64,000 bases of DNA. It comes from Dichotomocladium elegans (taxonomy: Eukaryota; Mucoromycota; Mucoromycetes; Mucorales; Lichtheimiaceae). The number at the start of each line of letters is the position of its first letter. Position 1 is the first letter of the stretch. Below, one piece after another: positions 977-57,944 of the stretch. The notes under the pieces were generated by a model. The model was not told the origin of the DNA. It was given only the letters and a program-made list of their open reading frames with translations, and made no database searches. A program made the position numbers and the translations under genes. The stretch lies in NCBI GenBank assembly GCA_025716815.1, contig JAIXMN010000008.1:1240001-1304000 (forward strand). The letters are read 5' to 3'.

Positions 977-3399
977 GCTTCTGAAGGGGAAGGACGTGCC
1001 GCTCGAATCAGTTCTTCGTTCGTTTGCCCTCTATCCCTTCTCTCTTTTTCCTTATGGGGACAAGCAATGAAACAAAGCTGGGCGCTTGAGCTGTGACTTG
1101 AAAAAATGCATGATGGACCCTTATTTCTTGTGTTACAATACGTCAGTTGCACATCATCAATCCAAGACCTACCTAGTCAGGGAAAGGATTGATCCATTGT
1201 GTACCATCGCAGGTCTCGGCGGGTCTAATTTACTTCCCCTATTAAGACATCATTTTGAGCATTGATAATAAAAGGCCATGATCCGTGTCTTGTGGCTGTT
1301 ACCGCATGGTAATGTATGTGTCAATCGCGTTTCGTTAATGGTCCAGTAGACGTATAGTGGAATACAACCCAGCGTAACCATCACCGCTGTATAACTTGTG
1401 ACGTAATAGGTCTGTTGCGAGGAAGCGACTGGTCTACTCTTGGAATCGTTGTCATTTAAACTCTAACTATCACCAATGACAATCACTGTGCTGGATGGGC
1501 TTGGGCGTTTCATGTCAACCTTGGAATGAACTGAGCATTTCTGGATAATTTAAATGTACAGATATTCGTCATTCTCATGCAAACGCCTAGAGATAGAGCA
1601 ATTTGGTGCACGCTTAAATTCCAGTATGGCATCTTGTCCCAGTTCTCTCGTCAAAATTCGGTCTTATTCATAAGTTCAATATTTTCAATAGACAACAAAA
1701 ATATGAATACGTTTCTAAACGGATTTACTTACACCCGCCGTCCGCTGAGTTAGCTAGATATGCGCTGGCGACAACCAGCACAGGGAAAGCAAGAGAGATG
1801 GAGCAGCGGCAGAAGCAGAAGGACCGGAAGCGGCAGATGAGGTTGATCAGTCAGCACTGTTTGTTTGGGGGATAGATAAGCCCGCATGGTGAATCAATTC
1901 CGCGGAGACGCGTAAAAGCACAGCGGACGCAATGAAAGAAATAGATGGCAGAAGAGAAACTCAGAATCTCCATTATTTAGAGGAATTCGAGACGGAACAA
2001 CCATGACTACTTTGTGAGTGACAATGCTGCAGCAGACACGGCAATGTATTATATGGTATCCTCCTTCATCTACGACGCTCATCAATGCTACTTCACGACG
2101 ATTACTGTATATTAAACATTCAACAAACAGCCCACATTGTTGTTACGGATAAATGTAAGCGGCTCATGGATAGACCTAATCTATTGTCAAAAACGACATT
2201 ATCTTTCTTCTTCAAAGATTAATTTCATCGAGGAAAGAATTACTAGCTGGTAAACGAAGCAGCATTTATTGCAAGGACGCCTTAATACTCGCAAAGGAAA
2301 AATTAACGAATATCGTGGTTTCAGCTGCATTGTATGAGAATCTGCAGTGCCAATCGGCTGCATACACGTGCATATACTACAGCAGTCCATCACCTTTGCC
2401 CTCCCATGGATGATCAAGATTCCGCTGCAAAACATTATATCACGGTCAATTCTATCTTCAGAACGTGAAGAAGTAATGTTGTTTGAATAATGAAACCTAG
2501 CACTAATATCTCAGCTACGAAGAGAGTCCGTGGTATGGACCATGGGCTGTGTATTAAAACCACTTGTGCATCAAAGTTGTTGTCGCTATATCTGGCATAT
2601 GCAACTCTGATAAGTTAAGGAGCACGCGCCACAAAGTCGCAGCCATTCCTCGCATGAGACAATGGGTTTCCTATACAGATCAGTATGCGACGAACATTTC
2701 CCATGTGTTGCATGACACCGTGCCATTATTTTGTTTTGTCCATAATTAAAGAGCTTATTCTTTGTTATATCCAAGTTCTAATCTAAGCCCCATTGCTGTT
2801 ATATAGAAGTAATGCACTTTATCACTCAACAAACGTTCTGGATATTTGAGGTACTGAGGCATCCCATATCTTCGCATACTCCTCTTTTTCTTTACATATA
2901 TATGTATATCTATTATGACAATCTCGTCAGAACTATCATAAGCCGGTTTATAGTTTTACCCAATTACGATAATTCACTACACATCTATAAGAATGGGAGA
3001 TCATCCTTTGAAATCACTCGGTTTTCTCCTATTCAAGCGAATACGATTAAAAGGCATCGATATCCTTTAAATTAGATGTATTTAAAAATATCCTCAATCT
3101 CATGAATAGCAGTGTTATCCATTTCCAGATAGTACAATTGACCTCGGTGCGTTTATACTTATCTCACTTCGTTCATCTGGCATTAGGGAAGCTCGGATAA
3201 TGCCAATTGCAGATTCTTTGCCTGTGGACATTCGAATTCACTTCCCTTATCATTTCTTGCCGGATTACTGCAAGAGTCTCACGTAAAATTGGAATGAAAC
3301 CTGGTGGCGAGATTGCTCCTAAAACTGTTGCTGGCTTTGCTCATGACTTTGGTACCGTAACGACTGCGTAAACTCATTTCCTGAGCCACGCATGTTACG
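977..3399. other. Gene-poor stretch, no supported gene
   Basis: Only short, random-looking open frames on both strands. The first few hundred bases should hold the promoter and 5' leader of the minus-strand ABC1-family gene. No tRNA, convincing terminal repeat or conserved domain was seen. AT-rich with a few short homopolymers. Confidence 0.6.
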
Positions 3400-4240
3400 C
3401 TTCATGTTAATATGGGAACGGATACTCATCAGAGAAATCAAATGTTTGTTACGGCCCATTGGCGCAACCAGTCAAGGCGGCCTTCGATCTTCGTACAATT
3501 ATTTCTGGCTACTAAATTCAAATCGACCCCGCTTAAATAACAGGTTACATTTGTTTTTCGTAATGGATAGAGCGCCATTTGTATAACTTTAAGTCGCTCA
3601 AATCTCTTCAGGAGCTGTGCCATTACTTTCTCAGAGCAATGAATGGATTTTCATCAACAGACTTTTAACGTGAAATCCTTATGCTTCTTCGTGAAGAATA
3701 CGAGGATAATTCCTGGTGTTCTGTCTCTTAGAAAACCGTCAGGTGTCTCTTCATACTGCAAAACTCATCACTGCGCTGAATGGATGTGTGATAGCATTTT
3801 TGCATAAAGTAGGCACACTCTGTACTTTCTCAAACATCAGCTTGCAAATCGGCATTGACAATTCTTGTGGTCTTTTTGCCTGAATATGCATGGCGACAGT
3901 TTTAGAATTAGCATTGTAAGCTAATTTACGCAGATGTTCTGTGCCGGAAAAAATGGATTGAAGAGAGCATATCTCCTCAGCAATAACATAGTCCAAGGCT
4001 CGGGGCGGTCATACAGATCAACAACATCGCCCCGTCCGTTTTCGGAGCAAAATTTCACTCGTCTTAAATTGATGAATGTGTATGGAAGGACAAAGTTCAT
4101 AATGTCAAAAAAGATCACATATCTTTGAAAATGCGGCGTCTCATCTTGCCGTAGAGATTTCTCGGTAAATCCGTCTTTGAGTTGGGTAGCCATGAGACTC
4201 TTTAAATTTGTGACATTTTGTATAGCCTGAATGGACACGA
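3400..4240 (-). mobile_element. Decayed Tc1/IS630-like transposase copy (family A, copy A1)
   Basis: On the minus strand, fragments at 3996-3751 (CKLMFEKVQSVPTLCKNA) and 3623-3438 (MAQLLKRFERLKV ... CTKIEGRLDWLRQWAVTNI) match in order the N-terminal half of the transposase that is better preserved at 25433-26440 (KLMFEEVLSASAAAK; MEQLLQRFEGLKVSKTTLHRF; AAKIQERLAWVRRW). Reading frames are broken throughout. Terminal repeats were not located, so the boundaries are approximate. It lies head-to-head with copy A2. Confidence 0.5.
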
Positions 4241-4308: not shown

Positions 4309-6050
4309 CACTGCTTTCCAAAATCAAAGTCGCAGGATCACAAAGCAAATGTCGCATGCATCCACAGAAAGATGTCGCTTGGCAAATCCTCTCTTCGTTT
4401 CGACTCTTTCTCTTTTATACACTTTTACGCTCTGAACTGAGCAATCTAACTCTTTACGAAGATGGACAAGACCATGTCGTTGATGAGCATGGCTGTCTTG
4501 AACCTATGGAATATCTTGTTGATGAAAAATTGTACTCTCTCCAATCTGTTTGATCTCGCATCGGATATCGGCGTTGCATGCCTTGCAGACATAACTCTGA
4601 TTTTATTACCCCAGACATTCAGATGAAAGAAGCGAGGATCAAATTGCAGTTACACAGCGTACGCTGACCAAGACAAGGTCAGGTTTTTTCAAACTGATGT
4701 TTGAGGAGGTCTTGAGTGCGTCAGCTGCTGCAAAACTGCCACGAATCCATGTTCTTTCAGCTAAGAAATGGGCATTGCAAGTACGAGAAGAACCCTGACA
4801 GCATCTTTAAGAAATTTAAAGCGAGGAATCGTTCGCGTATTCTCAATGAAGAGCATAAGAGCGTTATTTTAAATTCATTGATGAGAATCCATCCTTTGTT
4901 TTAGAGCAGCTGATGGAGCAACTGCTCTAAAGATTTGAGGATCTCAAAATATCTAAAACAACGCTCCATCGATTTATGAAAACGGATGCAGCTTACCATT
5001 GAAAATGCCTCGGTTTCAGCCTATAGACAGGAATAGTGCTGCAAAGATCCAAGAACGCTTTGACTGGATGCTCAAATGGGACAGGACCGATATTGACTCT
5101 ACAAAAAACTGCGTTTTCGTTGACGAGGCTGGATTCCATATTAATGTGAAACGCAGCATGGCATGGTCCAAGAAAGGGACCCCTGCAGTGGTCACAATAT
5201 CAAAGACAAGAGCAAAGTTAACGACAATATTCGGAGCAATCTCAGCATCAGGGATCATTAAATGTGGCTTGAGACTCTCACACCCCCCAATCAAGAAATA
5301 AAAGAGGACAGGTCAGTTTGAAGCTATGAGTAGAGGAACTATAACTGGACATTATCTCAGCTTCCTTAAAGCTACGATAGACGAGATGGAGGAGTATAAA
5401 CATATGAAGACCATTATTTCATAATGGATAATGCGCCTCCATAAGGCTGAGGAAATCTTTAAATACGGAGTCTCGAGAATATCGATGCTTATCTTCCACA
5501 ATACTCGCCTGAACTCAATCCGATTTAGTAGTATTGGTCAGTTACCAAGAGCAAAGTAAAAGGCAATAGGTTACCCTTGTTCCATTCTGCAATCTTATAA
5601 TATTCAGGTCCTCTGTAGATAGCGATATTAGCCCAACTCAAGTGCCTCGAGAGGAGAGTGTATGGACTTTGGGTGAGACCGTAGTTTGGCTGCACCCGCG
5701 CAGGTCTCCCACCATGGCTTCGCCGAGGTTTTTTGTTCGTCGCTTCCACCGTTGCTTCCCCCCTTCTTATGCCGCTGTTGTTGTCGCTGGTCTGCCGTCG
5801 ACGCTCAACAGCTCCAGGTCCTTCCTTTGTCGCTCTTTCGCCGTTGTTGCCTCGATGGCACACCTAGCTACCTTCGTGGTAAGTTAAAGGATAGGAAGGG
5901 GGCTGATGTTATCTGCTGGCTAATGGATATGTCTCGGCCTTCTTTATTCATGCGACAAATTGTATGTTTATACACACTATTTTACTTTTTTTAAAGGTGA
6001 AATATACGACTTTATCTCAATACCTACGAAAATATGTAGCACTAAACAAA
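4309..6050 (+). mobile_element. Degenerate Tc1/IS630-like transposon (family A, copy A2)
   Basis: The left end starts after a TA (4307-4308) with the terminal-repeat sequence CACTGCTTTCCAAAATC, shared with copies A3 and A4. The body carries a decayed transposase; the clearest part is 4999-5301 (AAKIQERFDW, FVDEAGFHINVKRSMAWSKKGTP), which contains the first DDE Asp. Homology continues past the transposase into a GC-rich right arm (about 5640-5900) shared with A3, A4 and the arm at 31310. The right end is too eroded to fix: it resembles the A3 end around 6010-6045. Multiple stops and frameshifts make it non-autonomous. Confidence 0.7.
4434..5540 (+). pseudogene. Broken DDE transposase of copy A2
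   Basis: Frame fragments in transposase order: HTH-like N-terminal part (4434-4904), then 4999-5301 holding FVDEAGFHIN (first catalytic Asp) and GTPAVVTISKTRAK, then 5390-5530 with degraded matches to the second-Asp and glutamate regions. Several in-frame stops and indels relative to the 25.9-26.4 kb copy. Family: Tc1/mariner-IS630 superfamily cut-and-paste transposase. Confidence 0.65.
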
Positions 6051-15514: not shown

Positions 15515-17274
15515 ATGAACGGCCAAAACTACATTGGATCAAAAATTTCGGCACGTCGTAACATCAATACCGGAAAGCTATCAAAAAGCTGCTAAATAAT
15601 GCCCGTTTAGCTTATCAGCAATAGTGACATTCGTTATGTTGGACGTCTCCACAGCTTAAACGCCGAAGAATCAACGGTCGCATTAGAACAGGGTAAGCTG
15701 AAATAAATCATAAAGATATCCGTCAGCATCTCACGCACTGTCTGTTAAAGTGCGATCGTTTGGCACTGAAGGCCGCCGTGGAAAGCCTGAAGAAGAAATT
15801 CCTCCATCAGACAATGTATTTGACTTTGTAATGTTCCGTGGTTCCGACATCAAGGATCTCCAAGTCCATGAAGGTCCCGCGAAACCAGCACCTCCGCCAC
15901 CACCACCTAACATTCCTAATGATCCCGCCATCTTGGTATGTTCAGCTTTGATAATCTCTACTATGCCCTTGTAGGACTGACATCTTCTCATAGCAGAGCT
16001 CCATGATGAAGAGCTATGGGGGCATGAACCCATACATGACCCCGTACCCACAATACTGGAATACCCCGTCAGCTGTGTATCCAGTTCCCATGCATATGGG
16101 ACCTAGTGCACATATTCACTCGTCTCCAGCAGCCACGGTTCATGGTTCTACCGCCGGTGCTTCGCGTGCGCACCACCTTAACCCCCCAGTAGAAATACCA
16201 AGCGGCCCGTCGCTGCGTGGCCGCCCTGTACCCGAGGCTACCGTTGGTTCTTCGGCCCGTATTATTCCTGAATCTCTACCTCTCAGCACGAATGGTGTAG
16301 TCGCGAACGATCTTGCTACTGCGTCCGTTCATAGGGCTCCCGTTCGTGCCACGGCGGCAACCATTCCTCATTCTTCCCCAGTGGCAGACCGCGAGGTCGT
16401 GTTTAATGCCGAAGCATCTAATGCAGAACTCGAAGAAAGTACCATTGACGATGCAGTCGACCGATTGGGCAAAAAAATAAAAAATTTGGATGTGGAGAGC
16501 GAGAAGAACGTTCAAGAAGACGACGCGCGATCCGGCCAGCAGCAGCAAGTACAGCAAAATCGTGGTCGCCGGTTCAACAGTAACGGACAGAGTAGCAATA
16601 ATACACGTGGGAGTGGTAGCGGACGTGGCGGACGCCAGGACCACCGAGGCGCTTCCTTTGAGGTGCCTAAGTCTGATTTTGATTTTGAGTCGTCAAATGC
16701 GAAATTCAACAAGGATGAAATTGTCAAGGAAGTGACCCGAAAGGTGAACGATGAAGAAGAGGAGGAAATTATTGATACTCGAGAAGAAGAACAAGAGGTT
16801 GTTATTCCACCCCCAACCGATGAGCCATATTATGACAAGGTAAAGGATAAAGCGGTTAACCCATGGGGAAAAAGCAAGAATCTGATTCAGGCATTCTTTC
16901 GTCTGCAGGAAAAGAGCTTCTTCGATAACATCTCATGCGAATCCAAGGAGCGCAATGAGCAAAGTATCGAGTGAGTATCCTCTGAGAGTGGATTTGATGA
17001 GAACAGACATGTTAATTTGTGAGCACAGTGGTGTTGATCGCCGGGCCAAATTCCACGAGGAGCGCAAGCTCAACTTGGAGACATTTGGTGAAGTCTCTGT
17101 CGATCATCCACGATACCGTAATTACCGCGGTCGCGGCGGATTCCGTGGCCGTGGACGCGGTGGTAACTCGCGCGGCTACCGCGGTGGCAATAACCGTGGT
17201 GTAAGTTACAGAGATGATTATACGTTCTTTTGTTAACAAAACTGTAGCGTACGATTCCACGACCTTTATTTTAG
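15515..17274 (+). CDS. Scd6/LSM14-family mRNP protein
   Basis: Seven exons: 15515-15550, 15611-15692, 15751-15935, 15997-16839, 16909-16970, 17029-17200, 17248-17274; 468 aa. Order: LSm-like N-terminal domain ([18 protein letters not shown]..., [18 protein letters not shown]), a Pro/Ser/Ala-rich linker, an FDF motif ([20 protein letters not shown]), the FFD box ([14 protein letters not shown]), the TFG box ([10 protein letters not shown]) and a C-terminal RGG tract. Family knowledge: these proteins bind capped mRNA and eIF4G or DDX6-type helicases, repress translation and promote decapping in P-bodies. The first intron appears to be GC-AG. The intron 16840-16908 is 69 nt with no stop in frame, so retaining it would insert 23 residues into the FFD box. 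If the last GTAAGT intron is not used, the protein ends at 17236 instead. Confidence 0.9.
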
Positions 17275-17582
17275 GACTTTCTATGATATCCGTTTGAACA
17301 GCACATACTCAGGGGCCACTTGATTTATTTTCTCGCTTTTCTGCTGTAACATATTACATACGTGTTATACTGTCTTCCTTGTCGTTTTCCTTTTCTAGTT
17401 GAATAATCTTTTATACACATACACATGCACAGCGCAACTGCATTCTTCCTCTCTCATCCTTTACTTACCAAGCAGTCGGTGCCTAAGCGTGTGAATGCAT
17501 GAGGAGCTGACAGAAAAAGTCTAGAACTGACGTAAAATGAACGGTTGTTGCACAAATGCACAATGGACATGGGTAAAATATA
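17275..17582. other. 3' flank of Scd6/LSM14 gene
   Basis: Pyrimidine-rich sequence that presumably includes the 3' UTR and poly(A) site. No further gene is seen before the TA target site of the Fanzor element at 17581-17582. Confidence 0.5.
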
Positions 17583-18040
17583 CACCGTTTTCGAAAATTG
17601 AAGTCGTGTCTTGGCAATTCTGAAGTCGTGGGATCACAAAATAAGAAGCAGAAACCTTTACGCATGATGACAAAGCAAATGTCGCACAGAAAACGCTTGG
17701 CTAAAAATATTAGCTTGCTTTTTCATACCCATTTTACAGTCTGAAATGAGCAAGGCCATGTTGTTGATGAGTGTGGCTGCCGTTGAAAAGGTAATGTACT
17801 CTCTTCAATCCGGTTATTTTCACACAGAGTATCTACGTAGTCCATCTTGCAAGGGTGACCCTGACCTTATTGCTACACATATCCCCAAGCGAAAGGATTC
17901 AGATGAAAGTAGCAAACTTTAAGCGCGGCTACACAATGTGCATCGACAAAGAGAAGGTTTATGTTCGCGAAATACAGCAATGGGCATTATAGCATGAAAA
18001 GGACCTTGATAAACCTTCAGTGAGGAGCATATGTTTATTA
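17583..18040 (+). pseudogene. N-terminal transposase fragment and left arm of copy A3
   Basis: Nucleotide similarity to A2 4309-4700 and A4 25279-25600: shared GATCACAAA..GCAAATGTCGCA, a TTTTATACACTTTTACA-like stretch, GTTGATGAG and TTCAGATGAAA. Translated after 17930, GYTMCIDKEKVYVREIQQWAL parallels the YTDQDKVRFFKLMF...KKWAL region of the other copies. Frames are broken and the catalytic domain is absent. The fragment is convergent with the Fanzor gene and ends within about 20-30 bp of its stop codon. Confidence 0.6.
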
Positions 18041-18055
18041 TATTTATATATGATA

Positions 18056-20176
18056 TCACTGCCGCCGTCGCGTACTCGGTGATGTAGGTGCTGCTTGTCG
18101 ACGCCTTCTGGGGACAACGGCCCTCCGAAATCTTTCTGGCACTTGACCGGCAACACGCAGACCGTGAATGATATGGATAAAATTTAGGCAAGCGGCAAGA
18201 TCCCGGTTCCACATCCGACGTACTGGACCGTTGTCTTCGGTGCGCAGTATGCAATTTTCGCTGTGACATCTACAGTACAGAGGTCAATGAATTCCTTAGG
18301 CTTTCGAATACATAAAAAAACGCAAGAATGAGTCCCATACCTCAAAAGACCGTGGCAAAGGACGTGGGGCCGCGGTTGCTGCTGCTGTTTGCGCTGCTGG
18401 TGTCGCCGAGGATTTAATACCATCCTGAATTTTGCAAGGTTCTCAGTGCCGTAGGATGGACAGCACTTGCTTGTTTTAAACTCGTCTATTAGGTACACCT
18501 CGAATCCATGCTTTTGCAGGAGTTCCCTGAAGCCCTTGCCACGTATGGGCTCATGGAATCGAGCCATAGGAGCTGACCAGTTCCCGAAAATGAAGACTGC
18601 AGTGCTGCCAAACTTTTCTTTCAAGTCTTGGACAAGCTTAACATCAGCGAGTTGTTTGTTGAAAAAAGCTGACAGACGGAGTTTTCGGAAGAGAAAGGCT
18701 TGGGGCATGTGGTCGGTCATGGTATGACTATAAAACCCCTGGAGAACGTCGGACACCTCGGACCTTACACGAAGAAAGCGGCGGAAGTCATCCAGAACCA
18801 GTGTGCAGCTTCGCTCCTCAGACAGGCGGTTGCACCTTGTGCAGCTGCTTCAACCAACGGAACTTTTTGCTCTTGCGTGCCTTGTCCTGCTGGGATTTTG
18901 TATACCGGAACAGTCGAGGCGCGATATTCGTTGATTCCTCGTGCACGCAGTACATAAAGTCTCGTCGGCCTGGATCGACGGCTACACATCGACCTGATAT
19001 TTCTTCATGATCCGCTCGGCTCAGGCTTGTGATGCAAGGGATAAGCTCCTTGTTTGCTTTTAGAGGTATCGCGGTTGCGATCGGCGATGCTCTCAGCTTT
19101 TTAAATACAGTAACCCCAACGCCATCTGTACTGATCATGCCACGGAACGTGAGATTGCCTTCTTTCTGGGGCCTGAAAGCTTTTGAATTGAGGTCAACTA
19201 CCTCATACCAATAATCCAAGTTGACGAGTTCGTCATCATTGTTCCAAGATCGTTGCAGAATGTTTTGGCAAAATATTTTGCTGTCGATAAACATATAACA
19301 CCGGGACCATCTGCGACGAAGTGGGAAACAATTAAAAGCAGGTAATTCGAGCCGTTGAAACAAGCAAGCGAGCTGGTAAAAGGCTTTCATGTGGTTGGCG
19401 GGGCGGGTCTTGCAGTCGTAGTAGATATTATCTTTTTGGAATCGGTAGCCTTCATGATAACAGTCGAGAACAGGCAATAGGACCTGCAAAGCCTCCCAAA
19501 AAACATCTGATTGCTGCCTGATGAGATCTGTGTTAATCTGTCGGCTACTAATTGCCAACTTGAAGCGTCTGGCTGGCTCGATCACGGTTTCCAGAATACG
19601 GGCGCTTATTTCTTCGGTGCTCAAACGATCGAGCAGGTCTCTTTCCATTATAGCCTTTTGACGTCGAATGCCCAGCAAAGTATTGACGGCACGTCTGAGG
19701 TGCTGACCAAATCGCATGTTGATATTGTTGCTGTACGCTGCATTTATCTTGCGTCCTTCATATATCGAGCATTGCTGTGCATGCGGAAAAGATGGCCTCG
19801 TGTAATTTGCATGGTGGAGATATCCAGGCAAGTACTCGTTGATCAGAGCTCGATTCCTGACTGTGATGGACGATCTAAGTGCACGTCTCTCGTATTCGAC
19901 TAAAGAGAGCCATACTTCAGAAAAAAAAAAACGGCTGTTCAAGAAGATCGCAATGTCGAAGTCTTGGTTGATTTGAAGTTCATTTAGGAAGATATACTTT
20001 GAGAAGGAGAACGCATGCACTGTTGTGGCGTGAGCAATATCAACCACCTCTAGTAACCGCTCACGGTGCTCTTCTCGCCAGCCGATGCTTTGAATAAAAC
20101 ACTTTACCGAAAGGATCCGGTCACCGACATCGCGAATGTTGCAGACACTCGTAGTTGATGTAGCGGGTGAAGACAT
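18056..20176 (-). CDS. Fanzor (eukaryotic TnpB/OrfB-like RNA-guided nuclease), probably inactivated by a frameshift
   Basis: The minus-strand frame opens at 20176 and runs 452 codons to a stop at 18818. A +1 shift near 18822-18841 continues the protein (NRLSEERSCTLVLDDF...) to a splice site at 18341. The intron 18340-18270 (GTATGG...TGTAG, phase 2) then leads to the last exon, 18269-18056. Recognised features: RuvC-I VAVDPGRRDF (Asp about 401), a region with FGNWSAP and HEPIRGKGFRELLQKHGFEVYLIDEFKTS, a zinc ribbon with KCCPSYG, CHGLLR|C and HSENC, RuvC-III MWNRDLAACLNF, and a basic tail (RFRRAVVPRRRRQ). Family knowledge: Fanzors are transposon-encoded relatives of TnpB/Cas12 that cut DNA guided by a downstream RNA. 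Odd points: the frameshift, and Tyr where a zinc-ligand Cys is expected in CPSC (a single G-to-A change). No Arg/Lys-rich tail loss is seen. The family call is strong; activity is doubtful. Confidence 0.85.
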
Positions 20177-20639
20177 GTCTGTACCGGGATGACTAAATAT
20201 TTCGGTTTCTGATGTCTAACCATTGATAAAAGAAGCTTACTTTTGAATGCGAGTTGTAAGTAGCTGTAGATATTGAAGACTAAAAAGTATCGGTATCTAA
20301 GGACCATTTGCGATGATTGTGTTAGCAAAACCTGAAACTTTAGAAATGTGAATGCTACTATCCAATTCCTTTTCTGCATTGTATTTTTACGCGGCGGAAA
20401 TGGGAAGATCGTAACAAGGCGTTTTCAAGCTCTGTATTAGTTAAAGCATCAGTAAGTAATGAAAGTCGTGCATCAAAAGTAGTACAGTATGATCTTTGAT
20501 TTCCTATAAATAATGGACAGTTGGTCAATCTGCTTTTTTCATAACTACATCCGCCCCTCTCTTTCATGGTCTTATCCGGTATGGTCATTATAATACAAAA
20601 TTCTTTTATTACAATCTAACATCCACACTTCTTTGTAGA

Positions 20640-21034
20640 TTAACCAATCGTACCAGCACTTGATGAGCCATGGAAGAGAGGAGATCCTGAACACTTCTTC
20701 TCTCCTTCCGCTCCGTTTCGCTGCCGCTTCTGGTCCCACTCCATTCCTTTTATTCCTTTTCGCCGCCGCCACTGGTCTCATCCCCTGTTGCTGCTGGCCT
20801 CCTCCACATCTTCCGTCCTGGTTATCGCCAGGACACCCATACTACTCTTCGGAGATAAGTTAACGGGTATGGAGAAGAGGTAGTGTTTTTTGTTGTCTAA
20901 CATGTTCCAATCCGCGGATCCGAAATCGTTTTACCTATTGATACGACAACTTTATACGATTCTATGCGTCGCTATTTTGTATTTTGTACGACATTGTTTT
21001 ATCTCATTTACGAAATTTATTTTGGAAAATAAAG
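20640..21034 (+). repeat. GC-rich right arm of copy A3
   Basis: A pyrimidine-rich, GC-rich block (about 20680-20860), then CACCCATACTACTCTTCGGAGATAAGTTAA, parallel to CACACCTAGTTACCTTCGTGGTAAGTTAA in A4, then a long AT-rich tail ending in the terminal repeat. The tail (TTTTACCTATTGATACGACAAC at 20930-20951) is also present in copy A6 on the opposite strand but absent from A4, so A3 and A6 belong to one subfamily. It sits upstream of the Fanzor gene and may include its promoter. Confidence 0.6.
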
Positions 21035-21101
21035 TATTTATTCAGAGGACAATCCTCGCCAGCGCAAAAGGAATTTGTAGACTGAGGCAGATGACGTATT
21101 G

Positions 21102-21239
21102 TCAAGGACTGAATTTGGTATTGTCGCCGCGTGACATAGAACGCTTTCGCGCAGCATCTCCAAGAGCATATTGGAGCGACAAGCCAGTGGGTAAAAAGGT
21201 TCCTCGCATCATGGTCTCTGAAAAATCTGAGGATGAAGA

Positions 21240-21274
<35 letters not shown>

Positions 21275-21488
21275 TTTCATGCGTTTGCTCCTGCCGTATG
21301 GATGTAGGAAGGATGCCGGGCGTCGTATCCATAGACGGGCGGTGCTTGGCTAAGGCCTGTTGGTGCTGTTTCAAAATAGCGTTTGTATCGGATGCCCGTC
21401 GTTGGTGGAAAACAGCGCAAGCGGAGGTATGAGAAGCAAAGGAGTCTGCTTTTTCATAGGTTTTTCCACAACGACAACGGAACGGCAT
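21102..21488 (-). CDS. Small zinc-finger protein with a polyglutamine run
   Basis: Single-exon frame of 128 codons. The N-terminus MPFRCRCGKTYEKADSFASH-TSAC has a C-x-C...H...C pattern (Cys5, Cys7, His20, Cys24) like an atypical C2H2/C2HC finger, followed by a low-complexity Gln run (11 residues, from a CAG-type repeat at 21241-21273) and a Ser-rich segment. No other domain. The A3 transposon ends 67 bp beyond its stop codon. Function is unknown; a DNA- or RNA-binding role would be a guess. It is accepted as a gene because of the ordered Cys/His pattern at the natural start and the long open frame; a longer gene model with upstream exons is possible. Confidence 0.5.
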
Positions 21489-24600: not shown

Positions 24601-25278
24601 TTCCTGTATGTACTTCTTTCATTCTTCATTCACCCTGCGCTATGCTGTCCATAATTTTATTACCAGTAGCCATTTTAGAATGTTTCTGTTTTTATTCCCG
24701 CTTATCCCTTCTTCCTTTGTAATCATACGCTACACTCTATTAAAATATGAAAACGAGTGTAATTATTCAATCTTCAATAGCCATTTAAAAGTTAAGGGAA
24801 GGAAAATAGTTTCGTGGGCCCACACGGTCGTGCTGAGGTACTCTGCTCCAATGGATGTACGTCAAGCGGATTCTACCTCTCGTGAACCGTGTACCTCATT
24901 TTCACAAACAAGGCCCTGCGCCACCACTTCTAAAAGTCGCAAGGCCATCGAATTAGAAGCCGCGGTTGCTTAGAAACTTTTGCGCATGATGATAAATAAA
25001 ATGCGTCGGCTTTTTAGAGGCCATCGACCCTTCTCTATAGATATTCAGCAGTCTGGATGAGCATTCACTGCAATCATACGAATAAATCCCACTTGAATCT
25101 GTTTGCAGCCAGTTTTGTCGCGGTAATAACCAAAAACAGGAGTTCACAAGATTTGGATCGTTCCGTTGTTCAAGAATGCAACGATATCACTAAATGTCAA
25201 TAGAGAAATATCTATTGATCCTCGCGATGAGGACAATTGGATCTTTTGTATATGTTGGTCAAACATGATGGAAACATA
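24601..25278. other. Intergenic, no gene
   Basis: AT-rich. A stretch near 24980-25020 (GCATGATGATAAATAAAATG) weakly resembles the left arm of A3 (GCATGATGACAAAGCAAATG) and may be a very old family-A remnant. Nothing else recognised before the TIR of A4. Confidence 0.4.
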
Positions 25279-26923
25279 CACTATTTTCCAAAATCAAAGC
25301 CGCGTTTTTTGCCCAGAATACGCATGACGACAATCAAATGTCACATGCATCCACGGAAAGATGTCGCTTCCATCTCTATAAAAATTCGTCCTTTTGACTC
25401 TTTCTCTTTTATACACTTTTACATTCTGAAATGAGCAACCTATTTTTCCACGAAGATGGCCAAGGTCATGTCGTTGATGAAGAAATGTACTCTCACACAT
25501 TCCCCAAGCGCAAGGATACATACATTCGGATGAAATAAGCGGAAATCAAGCGCAGTTACACAGCGTACACTGACCAAGACCAAGATCAGATTTTTCAAAC
25601 GGATGTTTGAGAAGGCCTTGTGTGCATCAGCTGCTAGGAATCCATGTTCGTTCAGCGAATAAATGTGCATTGCAAGTACGAGAAGGACCCTGGCAGCATC
25701 ATTAAGAAACTTAAAGCGAGGAGTCGTTCGCGTATTCTGAACGAAGAGTATAAGAGCGTTATTCTAGAATACATTGATGAGAATCATCCATTGTCCTAGA
25801 GCAGCTGATGGAGCAACTGCTCCAAAGATTTGAGGGTCTCAAAGTATCTAAAACGACGCTCCATCGATTTATGAAAACGGATGCAGCTTATCATTGAAAA
25901 TGCCTCGGTCTCAGCCTATAGACAGGAATAGTGCTGCAAAGATCCAAGAGCGCCTTGCCTGGGTGCGCAGATGGGACTGGGCCGATATTGACTTTACAAA
26001 AAACCGCATTTTCGTTGACGAGGCTGGATTCCATATTAATATGAGACGCAGCATGGCATGGTCCAAGAAAGGGACCCCTGGAGTGGGCACAATAACAAAG
26101 ACAAGAGCAAAGACAACCACAATCTTGGGAGTAATCTCAGCATCAGGCATCATTCAATGTAGTTTGAGACTCCCGCAGCCACCAATCAAGAAAAGAAAGA
26201 AAGCAGGTCAATCTGAAGTTATGATCAGACGAATTGTAATTGGACACTATCTCAGCTTCCTTAAAGCTACAATGGACGAGATGGAGAAGTATAAACATAT
26301 GAAAGACCATTATTTCATAACGGATAATGCACCTATTCATAAGGCTGAGGATGTCGCTAAATACACCGAGTGTCGAGGATATCGATGTATATATCTTCCA
26401 CCATACTCGTCTGAACTCAATCCGATTGAGCAGTTTTAGCCAGCTGTCAAGAGCAAAGTAAAACGCAATAGACTACCCTTCTTCCATTCTGAAAACCTTC
26501 TAATATTCCGGATCGTCTGTAGATAACGATATCAGCCTAACTCAAGTACCTCGAGAGGAAATGATATGGGTTTTGGGTGGGACCTGGTTTGCCTGCACCC
26601 GCGCAGGTCTCCCACCATGGCTTCGTCGAGGTGCTTTTGTCTTCGTCTGCTCCCTCCGTTGCTTCCCCTGATGCTTCTGCCGCTGGTGTTGTTGCTGGTC
26701 CGTCGTCGTCGTCGTCGTCGTCCCTCCTCGTTCCTTCCTCCAACCCTTCCGCCGTCGATGCTCAATAGCTCCAAATCCTTCCTTTCCTCCCTGTTCCGCT
26801 ATTGTTACCTCAATGGCACACCTAGTTACCTTCGTGGTAAGTTAAAGAGCAAGAAAGGGGACTGATGTTTTCTGTTGACTAATGGGCATGTCTCCGGGCC
26901 TTTACTTTTATTTGAAAATAAAG
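25279..26923 (+). mobile_element. Tc1/IS630-like transposon (family A, copy A4), best-preserved copy
   Basis: Starts after TA (25277-25278) with CACTATTTTCCAAAATC and ends with TTTGAAAATAAAG before TA at 26924-26925; 1645 bp. It contains the transposase frame 25433-26440 and a GC-rich right arm (26560-26860) with a GTC trinucleotide run. The order left TIR, transposase, right arm, right TIR defines family A and was used to read the other copies. Confidence 0.8.
25433..26440 (+). pseudogene. DD34E transposase of copy A4, N-terminal part broken
   Basis: The catalytic part 25894-26439 is open for 181 codons: FVDEAGFHINMRRSMAWSKK (first Asp), YFITDNAPIH (second Asp) and LPPYSSELNPIEQF (Glu), with 34 residues between the last two acidic residues, the spacing typical of Tc1 elements. 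The HTH half upstream (25433-25890) has stops and frame changes. A TAG replaces the Trp expected after NPIEQF; the frame afterwards still reads AVKSKVKRNRLPFF. Family: cut-and-paste transposase inserting at TA. Confidence 0.85.
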
Positions 26924-27978
26924 TATGCCAAGCCCTCGGCCGTCGATATGACTGCATAAATCGAGACTTATACTTCTTTATAGCGCTCATATCTGAAAAG
27001 GCACAACGCAAACCCGTATGTAACACGATTATGGACGGAATATCGATTGATGCTATGCGCTATGCGAGCACCCCGAGAGTAAGAACGGAATAACCAACAA
27101 TATTAGCAAGTAATGAACGTCCTGCAGCAAAAAAAGAAAGATAAGATCGATCGCCGCATGTACTTTCAACATAACTCATTGCAAAGAGACTATGCGTATT
27201 TTCCAAAGAGAGAGAGAGAGAGGAAAAGAACCGTGCAGCAGGCTAAGGTGTGCAAGAAATATACGTAGAGGGCGCTATTGGTTAGGAAAAGACGCTGAAC
27301 ATGATGTGGCTTGCTGTACTTATCATTCTGACGCAGAGATTGCACACTCCTGCTTATGGCCCGAAAAACGCTGCTTCCCAATTCTCTTATAGCAAGAAAT
27401 CTCAATGTAATAATAGAGAACACCTTTATCCAATTCACTTGCTTGTGATAAAACACTGACCAGCTTGAAGGGTGTACCGTACATCATATACTGAGAGTAG
27501 GACGGAAAATCTGTGGTTGTGGTGGTGGTGCGTGTGGCGTAATTTAAAAACCCGATTGCATGCATGTATGCTGCTGTGGTTAGTGCGCCCGATTCTGGGA
27601 ACCAAGAAAGGACGTCATCAGTACTGCAATCCTGCATAGGGGCTTTGCCTATCATAGTAATGATTCAAGGATTTTGATAGTAATGGCGAGTTTAGACCAA
27701 TTCAGGTTGTATAGACTGCCCATCGTGTATTCTGTATAACCTCAATTGTATTGTTCAATTATACCACGTCGTATGATGCAACTGGACTTTGCCAAGGCAG
27801 CAAATCAAACCACTCTTTGTATCATATAATGATACTTAGAAAGACATAGCATAACCTGCTCATCCGGCATTGCACTCCCATATTTATTCTCTTTAATACC
27901 TTCACAATATTATTTCCGTGTTTAATACAGAATACATGTCTGGCAAAAGATAAATATATCTGCAATGAGCTGGAAAAT
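26924..27978. other. Intergenic, no gene
   Basis: Only short frames without domains; short GA tract at 27207-27224. The end near 27950 is the 3' flank of the cytochrome c gene. Confidence 0.5.
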
Positions 27979-31309: not shown

Positions 31310-31507
31310 GTCGCATCCGCCGTCGATGCTCAACAGCTCCGGCTCCTTCCTTCCCTCCCTTTTCAGCCATTGTTACCGCAATGATACACCTAGCTACCTT
31401 CGGGCTAAGTTGAAGAATAAGAAGGGAGCTGATATTTCTGTTGACTAACGGGTATGCATGCGCCATTTTATTTCCCTCTCTTGCGAAATTTATTTTTGAA
31501 AATAAAG
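31310..31507 (+). mobile_element. Family-A right arm remnant (copy A5)
   Basis: GTCGATGCTCAACAGCTCC, CACCTAGCTACCTTCGGGCTAAGTTGAAGAATAAG and TTGACTAACGGGTATG match the A2 and A4 right arms, and the end CGAAATTTATTTTTGAAAATAAAG matches the A3 right TIR. No transposase of this family is attached. Confidence 0.7.
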
Positions 31508-31972
31508 CATAGCCGCAAACGATAACAATTGTTCCTCTTCTGTTAGTGTCGCAGGAAGATGGTTTGTATTCCCTTATGTACTGACCTATTTATGAGTAAT
31601 TGAACTCAATGGCAGGCACAATTGTTCTCCGAGGCCATCGCTACTGTCATCCTCCTCAGGTAGAAAAGCTTACCTAAACCACGCGTTCTGCAGGGTTAGT
31701 ATCGACAGAAACTTGCTGTCCAATAAAATCGATACCTTGTCGAAGTTCCTTTTGTTTTTGGGAGCTGTCTACTAGTGATTAAGCCTTAGCACAATATGAA
31801 GGTCTGCGCGCACATGCAGGTATCCATACTCCGCCAAAGCTGCGTTGCGTGTGCTTCGTTCATAGTCGATGTGCACGTAAAACATCCCGCTTTGGTGTGA
31901 CTACACGCGCACATACAATATACGTATTCACCGCTTTCGTCGTTCCCAACACCTCTTCCGACCAATTTCTTC
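31508..31972. other. Upstream region of the UBR1 gene
   Basis: No gene seen. Presumed promoter and leader for the gene starting at 31973; no clear motif. Confidence 0.4.
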
Positions 31973-57222: not shown

Positions 57223-57944
57223 TTTTATTTTCTGGTGACTATAGTCTCTCAACCAATCGATGTGAAATCCTTGCAAATACAGTACAAGATCAAAAATGTA
57301 GCATAAATTTATACGAAATTGTTGTATCAACAGGTAAAAAGATTTCGTTGTCAACATAAAATATCTCCTTTACAATCGGGCTCAAGTCCGGCGTATCCAG
57401 GTGTGCACATGGCGCTAACCATGGCGGAAAATTGGTGATGCGTCAGAACCAGCTGTAGGAGCAAGAACAGGCAACGATAGAGGTACAATGACGGGCACGG
57501 AACCGGCGAAAGGCGGGGGGCATCGGCAATTTACATCGGGTGAGCGCGGGGGAAAAGAAGACGTTAAGCGAAAAATTGAAAGCACCTGGGGTGGAGGCAA
57601 CGCCGCAGCGGCGGCAGAGACAGGCACAGAGACAAAGCGACGCGAGCTGCAAAAAGAAACAGAGGGGAAGGCAATGCCCGAAAGGCAGACAAATCGCGGC
57701 CCCACCGGATGATGTGATTCCGATTTAGCCTCTCTTCTATGACTTATCAAGTACGGGTACGATTGGTCAATCTACAAAGGACAGAAGGTATTAGCTTCGA
57801 TATAAAGATTCATCGATTTTCGCTGTGGATGCGACGTTTGCTTTGTCAGCGCGCGTAAAGGTTTCTGGGCAAACACGACTTCTATCTTTGTGATCTTGCA
57901 ACTTCAGAGCTGTTAGGGCACACCTTTTAATTTTGAAAAACAGC
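57223..57944 (-). mobile_element. Short non-autonomous family-A element (copy A6)
   Basis: Minus-strand orientation. The left end at 57944 (read inward GCTGTTTTTCAAAATTAAAAGG) and about 115 bp after it match the A3 left arm, including GCGTAAAGGTTTCTG on the opposite strand. The rest is a GC-rich arm (57415-57750) and the AT-rich tail with TTTTTACCTGTTGATACAAC, ending in a TIR (TTTTATTTTCTGG) after TA at 57221-57222; the other TA is 57945-57946. 722 bp without transposase or Fanzor: a MITE-like deletion derivative closest to A3. Confidence 0.65.

Follow-up and report, generated by a model that had tools for sequence, protein, structure and literature searches.

A repeated Tc1/IS630-like element carrying a Fanzor1 gene on the minus strand occupies positions 17581-21034 of a 64,000-nucleotide stretch of the genome of the fungus Dichotomocladium elegans (Mucorales; contig JAIXMN010000008.1, positions 1,240,001 to 1,304,000), with the dinucleotide TA at either side. 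The whole stretch is referred to below as the window, and coordinates without a contig name are window positions. We interpret the element as a dead copy of a transposase-less transposon with Fanzor1 cargo, which would have been mobilised in trans by a DD34E transposase and whose persistence would have been aided by the Fanzor, and we give this interpretation a probability of roughly 0.7. It builds on a repeated element with fixed ends, the homology of its cargo to Fanzor1, a DD34E transposase relic in its left arm, the even decay of the examined copies of its own family (family A), a young sister family (family B) with open Fanzor frames, and a locus (C57) in which an intact transposase frame lies beside a Fanzor.

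The Fanzor1 gene and the copies of its element

The Fanzor1-type protein is encoded between positions 18053 and 20176. Its 452-amino-acid open reading frame (ORF, 18818-20176) matches residues 503-937 of Parasitella parasitica Fanzor1 (PpFz1, PDB 9cf0; PMC11423790) with an E-value of 6.8e-68, and a further piece (18184-18756) matches residues 1095-1213 of the PpFz1 construct at 7.5e-32. PpFz1 is the closest solved relative of both this protein and the family B Fanzor, which matches it at 3.9e-120. The name Fanzor1 rests on these PDB sequences, because the window protein gave no Pfam domain at E 1e-3 and no NCBIfam match at 0.01.

As read from the sequence, the motif WNRDLAA lies in a third frame that is reached through a 71-nt GT-AG intron (18340 down to 18270). 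It interrupts the zinc ribbon after CHGLLR, ahead of the following cysteine, and an intron occupies this position in families B and C57 too. The first and second parts of the window Fanzor are in different frames, with a frameshift near 18815-18860, whereas they share one frame in two other copies (L011 and L019). In the zinc ribbon, CPSY stands in place of CPxC, so that one cysteine is a tyrosine. The RuvC acidic motifs, including the glutamate that we take to be catalytic, are present in the window copy and spread over different frames; in family B and C57 the acidic motifs and the zinc ribbon are complete, with the intron between. With its frameshift and lost zinc-ribbon cysteine, the window copy is dead. 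For the order of motifs in Fanzor1 we followed PMC3627910 (here and below, statements from PMC3627910, PMC10432273 and PMC11423790 refer to the parts of these papers available to us).

Copies of the element were aligned to a 3458-bp query running from TA to TA. The alignment comprised the window copy and 20 loci with their flanks (21 loci, family A). A DNA search of the genome gave at least 119 matches, with the best 40 of 952 candidates scored, so that the copy number is a lower bound. The left end could be aligned in 14 of the 21 loci and weakly in a fifteenth (L024), the right end in 13, and both ends in 10 (the window copy, L010-L014, L019, L021, L023 and L025), while the 25-bp flanks of the lined-up ends are all different. 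The left end reads TATACACCGTTTTC.AAAATTGAAGTCG, its first two bases being TA in 12 of 15 cases (AA in two, TG in one); the right end, from outside inward, reads TACTTTATTTTCCAAAATAAATTTCG. The terminal inverted repeats of the window element are imperfect. A second left end is seen in the right flanks of L010 and L019; in one of them it abuts the right end of the copy, in the other it follows after about 90 bp, indicating nested or tandem insertions.

None of the 21 family A loci has a Fanzor that can be read through all its parts without a break. When the 15 near-full copies are compared in pairs, their identity averages 0.87-0.94 in every one of 34 full 100-bp segments, coding or not, and falls to 0.70 over the poorly aligned final 58 bp. 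The 14 other copies differ from the window copy at 407, 398 and 492 first, second and third codon positions. The family A copies examined thus decay evenly, and earlier selection has left a trace at most.

At the DNA level, the left arm (to 18009) matches three loci with intact transposase frames (L050-L052) in their left parts, with 60-68% identity across 236-482 bp. Only an N-terminal relic of the transposase is left in the window copy, where its catalytic core was not found, and the open piece at 17795-17992 has no Pfam match. We conclude that the window copy is a non-autonomous relative of Tc1/IS630 (DD34E) transposons.

Most of what the first-pass annotation of the window had proposed is borne out by these results: the TnpB-family or Fanzor gene on the minus strand of a Tc1-like transposon with defined ends, by the PpFz1 matches and the ends repeated in 10 of 21 loci; and a truncated DD34E transposase as left arm, by the identity to loci with intact frames. 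It would have been refuted if no other genomic copy had both ends and the Fanzor body, or if the ends of such copies were not conserved; this was checked and did not refute it. Of the protein motifs that it named, DPGRRD and NRDLAA hold, and the zinc ribbon lacks one cysteine (CPSY, in a frameshifted copy). Its right limit of 21034 was correct and its start, 17583, lies 2-4 bases inside the element, the left TA being at 17579-17580. Its statement that both arms match other copies in the window applies to 57223-57944; the copies at 25279-26923 and 4309-6050 match by the left arm only. On the right side, the likeness of the 25279 copy to the element is limited to terminal-repeat-like sequence, and for the 4309 copy no right end matching the pattern used was found.

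Sister families, the two-gene locus and the transposases

Two loci of family B (L056 and L057) have 3953 bp in common at 99.3% identity and the same kinds of left and right ends, the element spanning 437-4386 in L056. Compared with the window element, the right arm is the best conserved part (83-84% over 182 bp, against 65% for the left arm, query positions 1-380); both arms run in the same direction, while the Fanzor coding DNA is 58% identical and reversed. The Fanzor of family B is therefore co-directed with the transposase relic, and that of the window copy is opposite to it.

In the search for Fanzor loci the best 93 of 635 candidates were scored, and absence of a Fanzor below means that none is among the matches listed. 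Among these matches, an open 639-amino-acid Fanzor frame without stops is found at 16 family B loci. The copies B1 and B2 differ with a nonsynonymous divergence (dN) of 0.0047 and a synonymous divergence (dS) of 0.021, from only 16 differences, and the comparison of the B and C57 Fanzors gives an excess at third codon positions (366 versus 216 and 178). Family B is young, with open Fanzor frames. Looking inward for up to 4.5 kb from the 40 B-type right ends that scored best, we found a listed Fanzor, always co-oriented, at 28 and none at 12; a co-oriented Fanzor is found at 19 of 31 exact left ends of the TACACC type and none at the other 12. One pair of Fanzor-less ends lies 1231 bp apart, which is too short for a Fanzor gene.

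Both genes are present at the C57 locus (L053, C57:1658500-1664800), which has an intact 473-amino-acid transposase frame, a convergent 606-amino-acid Fanzor frame and a further frame with NRDLAA. Its left end begins with CATACACT; the right end of this element was looked for and not found. C44 and C57 share 2752 bp at 98.2% identity, from the transposase through the 3' part of the Fanzor, and then diverge. Genome-wide, a transposase match (best 150 listed) lies within 5 kb of 7 of 90 merged Fanzor loci, convergent at two, co-oriented at four and divergent at one; about four such neighbours would be expected by chance, and the count alone is weak.

We placed these Fanzors in a midpoint-rooted phylogeny of 34 proteins (31 of 99 database hits and three loci), in which the window is represented by its 452-amino-acid ORF. 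Family A (window and P0001), family B and C57 form a group with support of 91/90, in which B joins C57 at 99/95, C57 being a long branch. Because B and C57 differ in Fanzor orientation while A and C57 agree, the orientation has changed at least once, or a Fanzor has been taken up again. We also considered that A might simply have been inverted to give B; upstream of the Fanzor, no DNA similarity is left by which to test this. End types can mix: at C79:410776-414737 (left end in L077), a 641-amino-acid Fanzor frame lies between a transposase-type TACACT left end, CATACACT, and a right end of B type. Family A is one branch of a larger system.

An intact relative of the transposase relic is provided by the 473-amino-acid ORF of L051, a locus sharing related ends, which matches DDE_3 (E 1.8e-30) and the NCBIfam IS630 model (164.7 bits, cut-off 100) and, weakly, Sleeping Beauty (E 9.9e-5). 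It has the D34E spacing, the 34 residues having been counted by eye. The genome holds at least 157 matches to the transposase catalytic domain (best 150 of 1686 candidates scored). Long stop-free DD34E frames of 299-475 amino acids were seen at L050, L051, L052/L053, C79:217587-218153 and C43:321401-321979, and the Tc1 family itself may have been recently active. TACACC left ends have a transposase match on the same strand within about 1 kb at C43:320709, C28:508904 and C90:951954, with a stop-free frame only at C43.

These findings modify two earlier proposals. According to the first-pass annotation, the nuclease replaced the transposase core in one subfamily. A simple replacement does not fit a C57 locus with both genes and a family B with the other orientation; because C57 keeps an intact transposase frame with a convergent Fanzor, family A could equally well have arisen by deletion from a two-gene element. 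The second proposal was that movement requires the A4-type transposase in trans. Family A was probably mobilised in trans, and the A4 type is the less suitable source, as the copies at 4309 and 25279 have left ends reading ..TACACT, unlike TATACACC of the window element; the transposase loci with TACACC ends fit better. A lost transposase and movement in trans is thus largely the right description for family A.

Transposon ends, proposed mechanism and alternatives

The left-end pattern TACACCNTTTTYCAAAATYRAAGTCG occurs exactly 31 times in the genome and its reversed control does not occur; the window copy differs from it at one base. A 28-base left-end pattern with at most one mismatch gives 113 genome matches, and none for the reversed control. 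TA precedes 27 of 31 exact TACACC left ends, and CA precedes 10 of 11 exact TACACT left ends (Fisher p 6.6e-6, with each copy counted as an independent insertion, an assumption verified only for copies whose flanks were read). As a background, TA and CA stand at the corresponding position of 8.7% and 7.7% of the TA sites in the window. On the right, the dinucleotide beyond the TA is not fixed, with TA in 7 of 23 flanks (5 of 10 in family B and 2 of 13 in family A); the family B count includes four flanks read from truncated ends and the added B1 and B2, L063, L067 and L071 having been dropped because no end was seen. The 20 family B-like left flanks comprise 11 with the exact type of end, two with a variant, one cut short, one of the TACACT type and five without an end at the expected place. 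Among 11 family B right flanks, three matched the end pattern, four show only its last bases, one was settled separately and three have no end.

The middle stretch of about 90-110 nt of the right arm is absent from two aligned transposase-type right arms (A25, 26748-26925, and A31, 31316-31509). We propose this stretch as a candidate guide-RNA region. It is not strictly tied to Fanzor, because it is also contained in the right arm at C34:302543-302721 (84% identity), and this arm has a same-strand transposase match 1.7 kb away.

In the mechanism that we propose, a DD34E transposase would move the copies by cut-and-paste at TA sites, and those members that still carry one would provide it in trans. 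A guide RNA would extend from one transposon end into the flank and direct Fanzor to the allele that is vacated or empty, which would be cut beside the left-end motif. Repair from the occupied copy would then restore the transposon, and Fanzor would thereby help the element to persist.

Several observations weigh against this mechanism. In addition to the C34 right arm, no Rfam match was obtained for a guide RNA, and with z-scores of +0.84 and +0.94 the right ends fold no better than shuffled sequences. Mild structure is seen in a single stretch behind the family B Fanzor (z -2.34, with 5 of 200 shuffles as good); it was the best of 15 overlapping stretches folded and was placed after the first result was seen. 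Little selection is visible between family A copies. Empty sites were sought with a composite of flanks, and usable paralogues came from one insertion only (C112:375048, family B). All three unoccupied paralogues have the left TA, and they read ATTAAAC, ATTAAAT and ATTACGT rather than TATA, their right sides aligning poorly; they favour plain TA duplication at this site, which leaves the CA upstream of TACACT ends unexplained. The target-adjacent motif (TAM) of SpuFz1, the Fanzor1 of Spizellomyces punctatus, is said to be CATA. PMC11423790 lists, in one sentence, CATA for GtFz1 and TTAA for SpuFz1, and elsewhere gives TTAA as the TAM of GtFz1. PpFz1, the nearest solved relative, has the TAM ATN and, unlike the D. 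elegans Fanzors, an extra RuvC insertion of about 100 amino acids (PMC11423790). The left TA was rejected as the target motif of the window copy itself and is retained only in the wider proposal given below. Guide RNAs usually lie downstream of Fanzor, and as the 3' end of the family A Fanzor faces the left end, this arrangement would place the motif at the opposite end.

The upstream TA or CA could also be part of the terminus of each end type, without relation to target recognition by Fanzor. The dinucleotide does track end type, including at transposase loci where no Fanzor was seen (e.g. L050 and L055), but the TA in all three unoccupied C112:375048 paralogues must at that site have come from the target; we regard this reading as a real possibility, though probably not the correct one. 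That Fanzor is passive cargo, picked up by a Tc1 family and without effect on transposition or retention, seems to us rather unlikely. The even decay of the 15 family A copies with their codon-position differences would suit it, as would the 12 B-type right ends for which no Fanzor is listed (some may have been missed), yet the 16 loci with open 639-amino-acid frames, the third-position excess between B and C57, and the retention of intron, catalytic motifs and zinc ribbon in both argue for a long-kept function.

It is very improbable that Fanzor and transposase are neighbours only through nested or chance adjacent insertions. This would accord with the number of transposase matches in the genome, with seven neighbours where about four are expected, with the missing right end of the C57 locus and with the nested ends that occur elsewhere. 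However, in families A and B the arms, transposase relic and Fanzor repeatedly occur together within the same ends, and the stretch shared by C44 and C57 crosses from the transposase into the 3' part of Fanzor. Within the preferred reading of a trans-mobilised Fanzor1 transposon, RNA guidance is predicted from the kind of nuclease to which the Fanzor belongs. A wider proposal, which we hold to be doubtful, is that one Tc1 family might host a split, modular RNA-guided homing system. Its parts would be a guide region at the right end (kept even where no Fanzor is seen), left motifs specific to the end type (TATA for TACACC, CATA for TACACT) and a Fanzor flipped at least once relative to the guide end, with nuclease, guide and transposase acting in trans across autonomous, Fanzor-only and gene-less members.

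Known systems and layout of the window

Jiang and colleagues reportedly described Fanzors in eukaryotes and viruses in 2023. In the element names given next, PUl stands for Pythium. The first-pass annotation rightly stated that Fanzors had been reported from several types of eukaryotic transposon: Tc/mariner elements that carry Fanzor1, show TA duplications and may or may not have a transposase were reported in 2013 (Bao and Jurka, PMC3627910). Their PGv-1, PUl-1 and PUl-4 are, like the elements described here, TA-bounded Tc/mariner transposons with Fanzor1, some carrying transposase and Fanzor and some Fanzor only with the same terminal repeats (PMC3627910). The examples named there are from a virus, PUl and Hydra, and the Mucoromycotina elements ROr-4, PBl-3 and MCi-4 were assigned to MuDr (PMC3627910), whereas here the host belongs to the Mucorales, the family is DD34E, both Fanzor orientations occur on the same ends, and open and decayed families exist side by side.

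The Spu-1 element of S. punctatus, which carries SpuFz1, resembles the present one in having Fanzor1, terminal repeats, a fixed dinucleotide upstream of the left end and Fanzor-less members; CA stands upstream of the left repeat at both SpuFz1 loci and Fanzor-less ghost loci (PMC10432273). The SpuFz1 guide RNA was measured (PMC10432273), while that of D. elegans is predicted. The SpuFz1 study saw no transposase flanked by the Spu-1 repeats (PMC10432273), whereas here transposase relics and intact frames share related ends. Since one fungus combines elements whose Fanzor frame is open, intact DD34E frames with related ends, a two-gene locus and Fanzor-less members, excision, guide RNA and retention could be tested together. 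In the literature searched, where most subscription papers were out of reach, no description of a fungal DD34E Fanzor family was found. Such a family, the two Fanzor orientations on the same ends and a left-upstream dinucleotide that follows the end type are the new findings.

Positions of the window element, its parts and related copies
Feature	Position	Strand	Basis or remark
Left TA, first TA of TATACACC	17579..17580	.	TA at 12/15 lined-up family A left ends
Left terminal repeat TACACCGTTTTCGAAAATTGAAGTCG	17581..17606	+	End alignment of family A copies
N-terminal (helix-turn-helix) relic of DD34E Tc1/IS630-like transposase	17661..18009	+	DNA identity to intact-frame loci
Fanzor last exon: second half of zinc ribbon (CHSENC) and WNRDLAA	18056..18269	-	Sequence reading
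71-nt GT-AG intron within zinc ribbon	18270..18340	-	Sequence reading; common to A, B and C57
Fanzor middle coding part (LIDEFKTS, CPSY)	18341..18817	-	Out of frame with preceding part
Fanzor N-terminal and first RuvC part, 452-aa ORF, DPGRRD	18818..20176	-	PpFz1 match
Right arm	20856..21034	+	83-84% identity to family B; candidate guide-RNA region
Right terminal repeat (TACTTTATTTTCCAAAATAAATTTCG on minus strand) and right TA 21035-21036	21011..21036	-	End alignment
Related transposase element, 195-aa DDE_3 frame 25852-26439, left end CATACACT	25275..26925	+	
Short derivative with parts of both arms; longest listed overlapping ORF 118 aa	57223..57944	-	

Elsewhere in the window, an extra right end is found at 31461-31509, within a transposase-type right arm (31316-31509) that is 78-80% identical to the right arms at 5791-5948 and 26748-26907. 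A third, more diverged transposase relic lies on the minus strand at 3055-3848, with about 64-67% DNA identity to other copies. The Fanzor element is flanked by two facing ORFs, both putative genes: an RGG-rich one on the plus strand (16955-17236) and a short one with Cys/His and poly-Q on the minus strand (21102-21488).

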